From the NCBI GenBank assembly GCA_002067745.1, contig MVRU01000017.1:1-45457 (forward strand): 45,457 bases of DNA, in the 5' to 3' direction. The position numbers and the translations under genes are program-made. The notes below the pieces were generated by a model. The model was not told the DNA's origin. It did not search any database and saw only the letters and a list, made by a program, of their open reading frames with translations. Numbering within the stretch: the stretch's first letter is position 1; each line of letters opens with the position of its first letter. Below, one piece after another: positions 3,554-8,594 of this stretch. This stretch comes from Syntrophus sp. PtaU1.Bin005. GTDB lineage: Bacteria > Desulfobacterota > Syntrophia > Syntrophales > Syntrophaceae.

Positions 3554-5443
3554 CTACATCCAGCGATCGGACTTGTACTTTGCGTCATACTCCGCCTTCA
3601 GGGCGATCTGGGTCGCTTCGGCGATATACTCCGGTTCCTTGACGAGGTCTTCCACCTTGATGTCCACGCCGAAAATCCCCACCATCTCGTCGTTGTCGTC
3701 CGTAATAGGTTCGGAAACGGTGAAGCAAAGGGCGCCGGTCATCTTGGAGATGTAGAAATCCGTGACGTGCAGTTTTCCTTTACGCATCGGTTCGATAAAC
3801 CACTCGCGGTCGGACTGGTCCGTGCCGACTCCGTAATTCTCATATTTGGCCCGATCGACGAAATTCGTGATGTTCTTAGTGGTTTTCTTTCCGTTCATGT
3901 CGACGACATAGGCGAACTGGATCGAAGGATACTCTTCGATAAACCGCTGCATCACGGGCTCCTGAAGCTCGGGCTTCATGGTCTTCATAGCCGGATCGTC
4001 GATGATTTTGCGAAGGACGGCAATGGCGGCCTCCGCAGCCTGGAATTTGATCCGTTCGAGATCGGACATGAAGAGTTCCGGCAGATATTTGCGGACCTTC
4101 GCTTCCAGCTCCTCGGAAGAGATCGTTGTCATGCGCCCGTCTTCGTATTCCTCGTTGATCCACTTGTTGATCTTGGAAATTCCCGGATGCCGCTTGTCGA
4201 TGGCGCTGTCGCCGGTCAGGCCGAAGTGCGAATTAATCCAGTAGGCGATGCCCGCTTTTCCGGACTTGTCGGTCACCATCGGGACGATGGGACGCTTCAG
4301 GATCTTGGTCGTGTCAAAGATGTTGTAGATCTCCTCGTTCTTGATGAGGCCGTCGGCATGAACGCCCGCCCGGGTCACATTGAAATCCGAACCGACGAAG
4401 GGGAAATTGGCCGGAATCTTGAAATCGATCTTATTCCGGAAATACTGAGCAATGTCGGTAATGACCGTCGTATCGATCCCGTTGGTCCCTCCCATGAGGC
4501 CGATGTATTCCATGATCAGCCCTTCGATGGGCGGATTGCCCGTCCGCTCACCAAGCCCGAGGAGGGTGGAGTTGGCGGCGCTGCAGCCGTAGAGCCAGGC
4601 GGTGGTCGCGTTGATCAGAGCCTTGTGGAAATCATTGTGGCCATGCCATTCCAGGAGATGCCCGGGGACGCCTGCATCGTCAATGAAGGCCCGGACCAGC
4701 TTGTCAACGCTGCGGGGCAGCGAGGCCCCCGGATAGGTCACCCCGTATCCCATGGTGTCGCAGAGGCGGATCTTGATGTCGATGCCGCTTTCCTCCCGGA
4801 GCTTCATCAGCTCGAGGGCGAAGGGGATGCAGAAGCCGTAGATATCGGCCCGGGTGATGTCCTCAAAGTGGCAGCGGGGAACAATCCCTGTGTCGAGAAT
4901 GGCTCTGACGATGTCAAGGTAATCGTTGAGGGCTTCACTGCGCTTCTTGTTCAATTTCAGGAAGATATGATAATCGGAAACGGAGGTCAGAATCCCCGTT
5001 TCCTTCAAGCCGGCCTCTTTGACCAGGGGGATGTCCTCCTTGGCCGCCCGGATCCAGCCGGTGATCTCCGGGTAGCGGAGTCCAAGGTCCTGGCATCGGG
5101 CGACGCCTTCCTTATCCTTCCTACTGTAGAGAAAAAATTCCGTCTGGCGGATGATCCCGTTCTCTCCGCCCAGCCGGTTCATCAGCGAATAGAGGTCGAC
5201 GATCTGCTGGACGGTGTAAGGCGGCCGAGCCTGCTGCCCATCCCGGAAGGTCGTATCGGTAATGAAAATTTCTTCGGCCGGTTGAATGGGAATAATCCGA
5301 TGGTCGAAGTCGATCCGGCTGACCTCTTCATAGGGAAAGACTTCCTTCTGCAGATTCGGTTCGTCCACATCCCGCAGCTCGAAGCGCCAGAACCGGGTAT
5401 GCTGGTGATTCAGGACTCTTTTTTCGGGATTCCATTTTGCCAT
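3554..5443 (-). CDS. Re-citrate synthase-like enzyme with C-terminal Cache-like domain
   Basis: Predicted to condense acetyl-CoA and oxaloacetate to citrate with Re stereochemistry, the step used by syntrophs and some clostridia that lack ordinary citrate synthase. The 629-residue protein has an HMGL/DRE-TIM barrel: TDTTFRDGQQ at 62-71, the metal ligands HGHND at 267-271 and GERTGN at 299-303. The N-terminal block, with IPIQPAEEIF just before the barrel, is characteristic of the Re-citrate synthase/homocitrate synthase branch. Residues about 495-605 form an added domain: AYVVDMNGK, DREWF, TDFYIS, and MVGIFGVDIKVEDL. That pattern resembles a Cache/PDC sensor domain. A ribosome-binding site (TTGGAG) lies about 8 bases before the ATG. 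Homocitrate or isopropylmalate synthesis remains possible; no leu or lys genes are nearby. Confidence 0.75.
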   Translation of the reverse strand: MAKWNPEKRVLNHQHTRFWRFELRDVDEPNLQKEVFPYEEVSRIDFDHRIIPIQPAEEIFITDTTFRDGQQARPPYTVQQIVDLYSLMNRLGGENGIIRQTEFFLYSRKDKEGVARCQDLGLRYPEITGWIRAAKEDIPLVKEAGLKETGILTSVSDYHIFLKLNKKRSEALNDYLDIVRAILDTGIVPRCHFEDITRADIYGFCIPFALELMKLREESGIDIKIRLCDTMGYGVTYPGASLPRSVDKLVRAFIDDAGVPGHLLEWHGHNDFHKALINATTAWLYGCSAANSTLLGLGERTGNPPIEGLIMEYIGLMGGTNGIDTTVITDIAQYFRNKIDFKIPANFPFVGSDFNVTRAGVHADGLIKNEEIYNIFDTTKILKRPIVPMVTDKSGKAGIAYWINSHFGLTGDSAIDKRHPGISKINKWINEEYEDGRMTTISSEELEAKVRKYLPELFMSDLERIKFQAAEAAIAVLRKIIDDPAMKTMKPELQEPVMQRFIEEYPSIQFAYVVDMNGKKTTKNITNFVDRAKYENYGVGTDQSDREWFIEPMRKGKLHVTDFYISKMTGALCFTVSEPITDDNDEMVGIFGVDIKVEDLVKEPEYIAEATQIALKAEYDAKYKSDRWM

Positions 5444-5469
5444 GTCTTAAACTCCAAATCATAAAAGTC

Positions 5470-5481
5470 TCTCTGCAGAGA
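5470..5481 (-). promoter_or_regulatory. 12-bp palindrome in the leader
   Basis: TCTCTGCAGAGA is a perfect 12-base palindrome about 20 bases downstream of the predicted transcription start. As a second dyad in the same short leader it is a candidate regulator site. No known regulator is recognised. Confidence 0.35.
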
Positions 5482-5495
5482 CAGTTCTCCATGCA

Positions 5496-5515
5496 CTTAT
5501 ATTCTAAAATATAAG
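5496..5515 (-). promoter_or_regulatory. Inverted repeat overlapping the -10 box, candidate operator
   Basis: CTTATAT (5496-5502) and ATATAAG (5509-5515) are perfect 7-base arms around TCTAAA. The repeat covers the -10 box of the promoter, where a bound repressor would block transcription. It could instead be a weak AT-rich hairpin. Confidence 0.4.
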
Positions 5516-5535
5516 AGGTTATTATTGGATGTCAA
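5508..5535 (-). promoter_or_regulatory. Sigma70-type promoter of the Re-citrate synthase-like gene
   Basis: On the minus strand TTGACA (5535-5530) and TATATT (5513-5508) are 16 bases apart. Transcription would start near 5500, leaving a leader of about 55-60 bases. It lies wholly inside the 103-base gap behind aspS, so the gene can be transcribed apart from the hisS-aspS operon. Confidence 0.55.
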
Positions 5536-5546
5536 TCGTAATAATT

Positions 5547-7322
5547 CTAGACAATTTTGAGGGACAATTCCATCAGCTGTTCGATGCTTACCTTGGAAGG
5601 AGCGTCCGTCATCAGGCAGGTAGCCTTCTGGGTCTTGGGAAAGGCGATCACATCGCGAATGGATTCCGCACCCGTCATCATCATGATCAGCCGGTCCAGC
5701 CCGAAGGCGATCCCCCCGTGGGGCGGCGTTCCATATTCCAGGGCATCGAGGAGAAATCCGAATTTGGTGCGGACCTCTTCGCTCTGGAGGCCCAGGGCCT
5801 CAAAGATGAGAGACTGGATCTCTTTTCTGTGGATCCGGATGCTTCCTCCACCAACCTCGGAGCCATTGAGGACGAGATCGTAAGCCCGGGCCCGCACTCT
5901 GCCCGGGTTCTCCCGAAGCTGCGGAACATCCTCCGGGACCGGGGACGTGAAGGGGTGGTGGGTTGAGACGTAGCGCTTTTCCGTATCGCTGAATTCCATG
6001 AGGGGAAACTCGGTGATCCAGACGAAGGCAAACTGGTCGGGGTCGATTAAATTGAGCTTTCTGGCGAGATGAGCCCGCAGGTTCCCGAGGGAATCGGTCA
6101 CCACGGCAGGCGTATCGGCGACAAAAACCAGGGCGTCGCCTTCAGCGGCCTCCATTTTCGAATTGATCTTGGAAACTTCTTCCGCCGTCAGGTATTTGAA
6201 GATCGGTGACGTCCATCCCTCGGCGGTGATCCGGGCCCAGGCCAACCCCCTGGCCCCGTAGATGGCGACAACATTCTGGAGATCATCAAGATCTTTCCGT
6301 GAGAGGCGCTTCCCGTCGGGGATGCGGATGGACTTGATGACGCCGCCGGCGGCGACCACATCACGGAATGCCGTAAATCCCGTATTGGCCAGGATATCGG
6401 TGAGGTCCCGGAGTTCAAGACCGAACCGGACATCCGGGTTGTCCTTGCCGAAGCGGCTGATGGCTTCCGCATAGGAAAGGCGGGGGAAGGGGAGGGAGAC
6501 CTGCCGGTTCAGGCAGCGCGAGAAGAGGTGCGCCATCAGGCCTTCCATGATTTCGATGATGTCGTTCTCCGTAATGAAGGACATTTCCACGTCGATCTGC
6601 GTAAATTCCGGCTGGCGATCCGCCCTGAGGTCTTCGTCACGAAAGCATTTGACGATCTGGTAATACCGGTCAAAGCCGGACACCATGAGCAGCTGTTTGA
6701 AGATCTGCGGCGACTGGGGAAGGGCGTAGAAGCTCCCCTTGTTGATCCGGCTGGGGACCAGATAGTCCCGGGCGCCTTCCGGGGTGCTTTTGGTGAGAAA
6801 GGGGGTCTCGATTTCAATAAAGCCCTCTTCCTGGAAATATTGGCGCGCTTCCGCCGCCACCCGACTCCGAAGCATGATGTTTTTCTGCAGATGCGGTCGG
6901 CGCAGATCCAGGTAACGGTACTTGAGCCGGACGTTCTCCGAGATGTCGCTGTCCGTCTCGAGGCTGAAAGGTGGGGTCTGCGATTCGTTGAGGATTTCCA
7001 GTTCCTCGATCATCACCTCGATGGCTCCCGTCTTCATGTCGGGATTGATCATTCCTTCAGGACGACCGCGAACCGTTCCCCGGACGGCCAGGACATATTC
7101 GCTGCGGATCTTGTGGGCCTCGCGGTGGGCATCGGGGCTGAATTCCGGGTTGAAGACGATCTGAACAAGGCCTTCACGGTCTCGAAAATCCACAAAAATG
7201 ACCCCGCCGTGGTCCCTGCGGCGGTGCACCCAACCCATGAGAATGACTTCCGAATCGAGTTGATTGGTGCCCAGATGTCCACAGTAATGCGTTCTCTTCA
7301 TGGTCGTTAGAAAATCCGACAA
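5547..7322 (-). CDS. aspS: Aspartate--tRNA ligase
   Basis: Charges tRNA-Asp with aspartate in the cytoplasm. The 591-residue length fits the bacterial form with an inserted GAD domain. Visible parts are the OB-fold anticodon-binding domain ([20 protein letters not shown]), class II motif 2 around [18 protein letters not shown], and motif 3 at [13 protein letters not shown]. The start is uncertain. A TTG at 7322 has a fitting ribosome-binding site (GAGAGGT, within the 3' end of hisS); the ATG at 7301, which gives the familiar MKRTHYCG start, has none. It follows hisS by 6 bases and is clearly cotranscribed. Whether it also charges tRNA-Asn cannot be read here. Confidence 0.95.
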
Positions 7323-7328
7323 AGGTCG

Positions 7329-8594
7329 TTACCTCTCTTTTATAAGATTCAGAATGTGCTGATCCAGATCATCAAGGGAAACGGTCTGCTGAGTTCCGGT
7401 TTTCATGTCCCGCAGCTCGACCTTCCGTTCTTCGATTTCCCTGTCCCCAAGTATCAGCGTATAGGAGCAGTTCAACCGACCCGCCTTTTTCATCTGGCTT
7501 TTAAGGCTTTTAGACGAAAATTCCTGCTCTGCGTAAATCCCTTTCAATCTCCATTGATTGCACAGGGTAAAGGCCAAATTCCGGGCCTGTTCCCCCAGGG
7601 AGGCCAGAAAGATGTCCGGTGGGGGCGCAGAAGCGGACTCCGGCACCTCCAAAAGGGCAAGCAGCCGTTCAAACCCGACGGCAAATCCAATGCCGGGGAT
7701 ATCCGGGCCGCCCAGTTCCTGGACAAGGCGGTCATAGCGGCCGCCGCCGACCACGGCATTCTGGGAGCCCAGATGCTCCGTTGTGACTTCGAAGGTCGTC
7801 TTCGTGTAGTAATCCAGCCCCCTGACCATTCCGGGATTCACCGTGTAGGGTATGGCGAATTCCTCCAGGGCGGAAGTCACCTTTCCGAAATGCTCCCGGC
7901 AGTCTCCGCAGAGAAAGTCGCCGAGGTGAGGCGCGCCGCGAATGATCTCCTGGCACTCTTTCGACTTGCAGTCGAAAACCCGGAGGGGGTTGGTGCCCAG
8001 GCGTCGCTTGCAGTCGTCGCAGAGTCCCGCCTCCTTTCCCTGAAGAAATTCCGTAATGACGTTCCTGAACGCGGGACGGCAGGACGAACACCCCAGGGAA
8101 TTCAGCTCCAGGCTGACCTTCTTCAGGCCGACTCGGTCGAGAAAGTGCATGAGCATGAGGATGATTTCCGCATCGGCCCGGGGATCATCGAGGCCCAGCA
8201 GTTCCGCATCGATCTGGTGAAACTGCCGGAACCGGCCTTTCTGAGGCCGTTCGCGGCGGAACATGGGGCCGATGGTAAAAAGCCGCGTTACCGCCTGGGC
8301 ATTGTGGAGCGAGTGCTCCAGGTAGGCCCGGATAACGGAGGCCGTTGCCTCCGGCCGCAGGGTCAGGTACTCGTCCCCACGGTCCAGGAAGGTGTACATT
8401 TCCTTTTCAACGATGTCCGTGGATTCGCCGATTCCCCTCTTGAAAAGGTCGGTTTTTTCCAGGACGGGCAGGCGGATTTCCCTAAACCCGAAACGGGAAA
8501 AAACTTCCCTGGCGACGTTCTCCACGAAGCGCCACTTTTCCGTTTCCTCGGGCAGAATATCCTTAAACCCTTTAACTGCCGTAATGATTTCCAT
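7329..8594 (-). CDS. hisS: Histidine--tRNA ligase
   Basis: Charges tRNA-His. The 421-residue protein starts with AVKGFKDILPEE, has motif 2 as GPMFRRERPQKGRFRQFHQ and the histidine-binding motif RGLDYYTKTTFE, and ends with the HisRS anticodon-binding domain. CSSC and CDDC (SLGCSSCRP...LCDDCKRRLG) and two further cysteine pairs in the central insertion are common in HisRS. It is the first gene of the hisS-aspS pair. No T-box-like leader was seen in the 107 bases upstream. Confidence 0.96.
   Translation of the reverse strand: MEIITAVKGFKDILPEETEKWRFVENVAREVFSRFGFREIRLPVLEKTDLFKRGIGESTDIVEKEMYTFLDRGDEYLTLRPEATASVIRAYLEHSLHNAQAVTRLFTIGPMFRRERPQKGRFRQFHQIDAELLGLDDPRADAEIILMLMHFLDRVGLKKVSLELNSLGCSSCRPAFRNVITEFLQGKEAGLCDDCKRRLGTNPLRVFDCKSKECQEIIRGAPHLGDFLCGDCREHFGKVTSALEEFAIPYTVNPGMVRGLDYYTKTTFEVTTEHLGSQNAVVGGGRYDRLVQELGGPDIPGIGFAVGFERLLALLEVPESASAPPPDIFLASLGEQARNLAFTLCNQWRLKGIYAEQEFSSKSLKSQMKKAGRLNCSYTLILGDREIEERKVELRDMKTGTQQTVSLDDLDQHILNLIKER

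Follow-up and report, generated by a model that had tools for sequence, protein, structure and literature searches.

A PDC/Cache domain at the C-terminus of Re-citrate synthase in Syntrophus and its relatives

2-Isopropylmalate synthase (LeuA) belongs to the same barrel superfamily as Re-citrate synthase, and its end product, leucine, binds a regulatory domain that follows the barrel and a linker. The Re-citrate synthase of Syntrophus aciditrophicus is reportedly the subject of a paper by Kim et al. from 2013. The enzymes of S. aciditrophicus and C. kluyveri are treated as known, isolated Re-citrate synthases (PMC12016533). Cache domains are described as the leading family of extracellular sensors in prokaryotes. 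In a 2016 survey their families were found to be principally extracellular, with YkuI_C and Diacid_rec as intracellular exceptions, and their known outputs, the SMP_2 family apart, lay in signal transduction; the text of that survey makes no mention of citrate synthase (PMC4822843). KinD of Bacillus subtilis, PctA, and Tlp3 are kinases or chemoreceptors with double PDCs on the outer side of the membrane, whereas the window (the whole stretch of 45,457 nucleotides from Syntrophus sp. PtaU1.Bin005 that was analysed) codes for an enzyme of metabolism with a single cytosolic PDC of the same fold. A literature search for a Cache domain with citrate or homocitrate synthase returned nothing relevant, which is weak evidence, as most subscription papers lie outside its coverage. 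The protein itself is known through S. aciditrophicus, and its Cache-tailed architecture is apparently an undiscussed variant.

The enzyme and the Cache fold of its tail

The gene (3554..5443, minus strand) starts with ATG and codes for a protein of 629 residues, a Re-citrate synthase of the C. kluyveri / S. aciditrophicus type with a C-terminal PDC/Cache domain. Its DRE-TIM barrel comprises residues 60-335 (4439..5266, minus strand) and was matched in the whole protein by the HMGL-like Pfam family PF00682 over residues 60-333 (E 4e-27). The motifs FRDGQQ (66-71), HGHND (267-271), and GERTGN (298-303) all lie within the barrel, where the first-pass annotation had rightly placed the latter two, and they show little or no variation among 40 tailed homologues. 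The post-barrel linker, residues 336-459 (4067..4438, minus strand), has a weak HCS_D2 match at 358-400 and is helical in the model. It leads into the PDC/Cache domain, residues 460-602 (3638..4066, minus strand), which was delimited by PF22673, the AlphaFold model, and structure searches. The protein ends in a helical extension, residues 603-629 (3557..3637, minus strand), with a pLDDT of about 45 in the full model; most sequences of the order align to residue 629, and most other lineages end at about 602-609.

The Si-citrate synthase family PF00285 had no match in the genome of the window, which is 99.6% complete, and 13 of 14 controls were positive. As read from the sequence, the gene is the only citrate synthase of the organism, with the Re-face type predicted. 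A genome of the same genus, G003 (one contig, 3,179,300 bp), which we take to be S. aciditrophicus SB, contains a single close homologue that is 90% identical over all 629 residues and 93% identical in the tail. Whether the S. aciditrophicus enzyme possesses this tail had been left as a question in the first-pass annotation; under that assignment of G003, it has the same tail and no structural difference from the window enzyme.

The tail had been proposed to be a Cache/PDC-like sensor domain, and the profile and structure searches gave a PDC fold, with nothing that spoke against the proposal. MCP-like_PDC_1 (PF22673) scored 46.7 bits with the full-length protein and 49-50.1 bits with the tail alone, above its curated cut-off of 27 bits. 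The same family matched all of the 50 aligned tails, and the match is therefore far beyond chance. The best dCache_1 score of the window tail, 37.8 bits, was under the cut-off of 45 for that family; both Pfam and the model indicate a single PDC module at residues 460-602 and not the double Cache architecture of dCache_1AA sensors. An AlphaFold model of residues 452-629, built from the 50 aligned tails, had a mean pLDDT of 83.7. It places helices at 461-481, 484-488, and 491-504 ahead of a first strand at 508-515, the arrangement of a Cache domain. The long N-terminal helix, residues 461-481 (4001..4063, minus strand; DSSP on the models), belongs to the Cache domain, so that the domain starts at about residue 460. 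The C-terminal domain previously delimited as residues 490-605 is thus real, but it spans about 460-602, and its long first helix had been missed.

Structural comparisons placed the tail among known sensors. Foldseek searches of the PDB with the tail model retrieved KinD (E 8e-8), C. jejuni Tlp3, DcuS, DctB, PctA-C, and YkuI, while the VIA-align Z scores were 15.7 for WalK, 15.1 for KinD, 14.2 for Tlp3, 13.4 for citrate-bound CitA, 13.2 for DctB, and 12.7 for YkuI. The sequence profile of the tail also retrieved Tlp3, KinD, and PctA from the PDB, with E values of 1e-10 to 1e-7. The best structural matches include PDC sensor domains, of which many bind ligands. Cache domains typically, though not universally, sit between two membrane helices, and the tail departs from this siting in having no hydrophobic segment. 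The mean hydropathy of 19-residue stretches peaked at 0.90 over the 629-residue protein; no membrane segment was thus detected, and a cytosolic location is expected. This agrees with the earlier view that the domain acts in the cytoplasm.

Distribution of the tail and gene neighbourhood

The tail arose long ago and has been retained in one large branch of the enzyme family; it is neither universal nor specific to the genome of the window. Within the order to which the window belongs, every full-length homologue was tailed, and in a sample of the phylum the enzyme was present in 119 of 247 genomes, nearly always with the tail. At least eight bacterial phyla have tailed enzymes, and the tailed relatives belong to Desulfobacterota (including Desulfovibrio), Nitrospirota, Omnitrophota, Elusimicrobiota, Spirochaetota, Lentisphaerota, Auribacterota (Erginobacter), and Margulisbacteria (Termititenax); many of these relatives are metagenome bins, whose single taxon labels may be wrong. 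No relatives were found in a scan of viral contigs (viral_contigs). The Re-citrate synthases of Bacillota and of anammox Planctomycetota have the same barrel and linker, with 50-62% identity over the first 460 residues or so, but they end at about 450-480 residues, without the PDC/Cache domain. The tail was absent from all 27 Bacillota genomes with the enzyme, and from the enzymes of Brocadiaceae (anammox) and other Planctomycetota. For these 27 genomes, this is in line with the first-pass annotation, in which the first characterised clostridial enzymes are said to lack such a tail.

A tree was built on the catalytic part with 146 family rows, 88 of them tailed. The tail trait required 6 changes on a quick tree, compared with about 46 when the labels were shuffled, and a constraint holding all tail-less rows together was not rejected (p-AU 0.069). 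The tail is therefore not a standard part of all Re-citrate synthases, which had been raised as an objection to reading it as an addition, but it is standard throughout one large branch. It separates two branches of Re-citrate synthase, the kinetics of which should not be pooled. Two tail-less enzymes from Desulfobacterota genomes (L077, L078) nest inside the Bacillota clade, which suggests acquisition from clostridia, or misbinning of the contigs, in preference to loss of the tail. These results show that the fusion of Re-citrate synthase and Cache domain is real and old.

Two other accounts of the tail were tried and rejected. A recent fusion in the genome of the window is rejected because the tail occurs throughout the order and in a large part of the phylum. 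Decayed or read-through tails were considered for five loci with stops within their C-terminal matches (L151, L155, L157, L165, and L168); what follows the stop has no relation to the tail and is either the next gene or noise, and these are therefore ordinary tail-less enzymes.

Several minor observations were made in the same survey. Three Bacillota genomes (G551, G578, and G603) have two divergent tail-less copies each (L213, L214, and L215 with L192, L196, and L198), and G603 has a third match to the enzyme, which is partial or more distant. L211, also from Bacillota, is a tail-less and highly divergent homologue, with 49% identity and a branch length of 1.5, and may have a different substrate. 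L142 is titled Betaproteobacteria and carries an enzyme in the Desulfovibrio clade; it is probably a mislabelled termite-gut bin.

Directly upstream of the gene lies aspS (5547..7322, minus strand), and upstream of this is hisS (7329..8594, minus strand), both named from their translations. The aspS gene was found upstream on the same strand, within about 1 kb, in 88 of the 142 tailed loci with enough flank, compared with none of 59 tail-less loci; the sole exception counted as tail-less with aspS upstream was L032, a truncated contig of the tailed order. Many relatives also have hisS upstream of aspS where the flank reaches, and the order hisS-aspS-Re-citrate synthase (3554-8594 in the window, minus strand) is conserved across much of Desulfobacterota. 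Because the pattern tracks phylum membership, the adjacency of aspS is not independent evidence for the tail. The neighbourhood suggests an amino-acid-supply setting for the Re-citrate synthase gene, and the three genes possibly form an amino-acid-supply operon.

Conserved pocket and possible control of the enzyme

The tail is under strong purifying selection. Its dN/dS within the genus was about 0.02-0.03 (NG86, where computable), below that of the catalytic part, and its mean pairwise identity among 146 tailed sequences was 0.50, against 0.70 for the barrel. W548, S566, L572, and D594 occur in all 146 tailed sequences, followed by F549 and T569 (144/146 each), R546 (142/146), and Y564 (131/146); G518, T575, and G589 are, like F549, T569, and R546, conserved at 97-99%. 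The residues of pocket type among them (R546, W548, F549, Y564, S566, T569, and D594) are thus conserved at 90-100%, and several can be placed on known pockets by alignment. R546-x-W548-F549 (3797..3808, minus strand) corresponds to R126-x-W128-Y129 of PctA, and its Arg to R131 of KinD. Y564-x-S566-x-x-T569-G-x-L572 (3728..3754, minus strand) is a pocket-wall motif in which Y564 aligns with PctA Y144 and S566 takes the place of the PctA Asp two residues after Y144; YxSxxTG is also present in KinD. D594 (3662..3664, minus strand) aligns with PctA D173, which binds the amino group of amino acids in these receptors. Overall, four of the six positions of the amino-acid motif of PctA (Y121/R126/W128/Y129/Y144/D173) are identical in the tail, one is a conservative change (Y129 to F), and Y121 is absent, its position being taken by T541, with no counterpart. 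More generally, KinD, PctA, and Tlp3 have the pocket positions R/K-x-W/F-[YF] and the next Tyr in common with the tail. In the literature, R126 of PctA is a carboxylate contact, and D173, a key residue of the motif, is in contact with amine ligands as well.

Since similar residues are general in PDC domains, the pocket-type residues argue for a working pocket and not for a single ligand. By these alignments the pocket of the tail is likely a carboxylate site, intermediate between those of PctA and KinD. D594 is invariant and therefore leans towards an amino acid, which we infer to be at least as likely a ligand as a plain organic acid, the example of a possible allosteric effector given in the first-pass annotation.

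The proposed mechanism starts from the position of the domain. The single PDC/Cache domain follows the linker of Re-citrate synthase where LeuA has its leucine-binding regulatory domain; this dimer (regulatory) domain of LeuA is likewise ligand-binding but has a different fold, and the LeuA barrel is only about 25-30% identical to that of the window enzyme. The ligand of the cytosolic Cache domain would be a small carboxylate, for which glutamate, aspartate, or another amino acid is plausible; R546/W548 would lie on its carboxylate side and D594 on its amino side. Binding may then move the first helix of the domain (461-481), a direct continuation of the linker, with a resulting change in catalysis. 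Where Re-citrate synthase serves biosynthesis, its pathway leads most obviously to glutamate, and this fits the argument from D594. Tail-less relatives, 50-65% identical to the window enzyme, are presumably active, so the tail appears dispensable for catalysis in the family. We put the probability that the Cache tail confers ligand-dependent control on the enzyme in general, with an organic acid included among the candidate ligands, at roughly 0.6. Within it we infer the binding of a ligand, its identity, the direction of its effect, and the coupling via the linker. The amino-acid version alone ranks lower: that anaerobes from eight or more phyla use the built-in Cache domain to sense an amino-acid end product, and thereby control the flow of carbon into 2-oxoglutarate, has, in our judgement, somewhat short of an even chance.

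If the tail is a true sensor, a widespread and conserved cytosolic Cache domain on an enzyme of central carbon metabolism would extend Cache outputs to direct enzyme control. The fusion suggests that a metabolite may be sensed directly on the enzyme, in which case a chemoreceptor-type Cache domain would have moved to the cytosol as an allosteric metabolite sensor within a citrate synthase. It may also explain how citrate entry is regulated in strict anaerobes without Si-citrate synthase. The question is cheaply testable on the enzyme already studied from Syntrophus.

The same pocket could belong to a carboxylate sensor of the KinD type, responding to pyruvate, acetate, lactate, or citrate through product inhibition or precursor activation; this is a sub-case of ligand-dependent control, and we consider it less likely than not. 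KinD was the best Foldseek match and has the Arg and YxSxxTG in common with the tail, its substrates in the literature are succinate, malonate, pyruvate, and lactate, and citrate-bound CitA is among the structural matches. However, two residues common to all 146 tails differ in KinD: there is no Asp at the position of D594, and that of W548 is occupied by F. It is unlikely, in our estimate, that the tail is a ligand-free structural module, which would only stabilise the dimer or position the subunits and leave catalysis unregulated. PDC and PAS domains often dimerise via their N-terminal helix, and S460, K466, and A469, in or before this first Cache helix, are also conserved; tail-less relatives exist; and the structural score of WalK, for whose sensor domain we know of no ligand, is as high as that of KinD. 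The most conserved positions of the tail are nevertheless the ligand-contact positions of PctA and KinD, which extends conservation beyond the dimer helix alone.

The conserved gene order in Desulfobacterota could be taken to mean that the Cache domain couples the enzyme to another protein (a tRNA synthetase or a signalling protein, for example) and not to a small molecule. We regard this as highly improbable, because the same tail occurs without an adjacent aspS in Nitrospirota, Elusimicrobiota, Spirochaetota, and Desulfovibrio, and the conserved residues resemble a pocket more than a surface. Ligand-dependent control is the reading that we prefer.

YkuI_C is, like the tail, an intracellular Cache domain at the C-terminus of an enzyme, but its partner is a signalling enzyme, an EAL domain of the c-di-GMP phosphodiesterase type. 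PF22673 is by far the better-scoring profile for the window tail, which had no match to the YkuI_C profile at E ≤ 0.01, a threshold at which 17 of the 50 aligned tails matched it. Among the genomes of 13 relatives, an EAL-YkuI_C protein was the next-best match to the tail profile. This protein (L238:1444-2697, minus strand), from a genome of the same order (G006), has a C-terminal Cache domain (HYISFATGNLCITLS) that resembles the Re-citrate synthase tail, and it is another cytosolic Cache domain and possibly a near relative of the tail.
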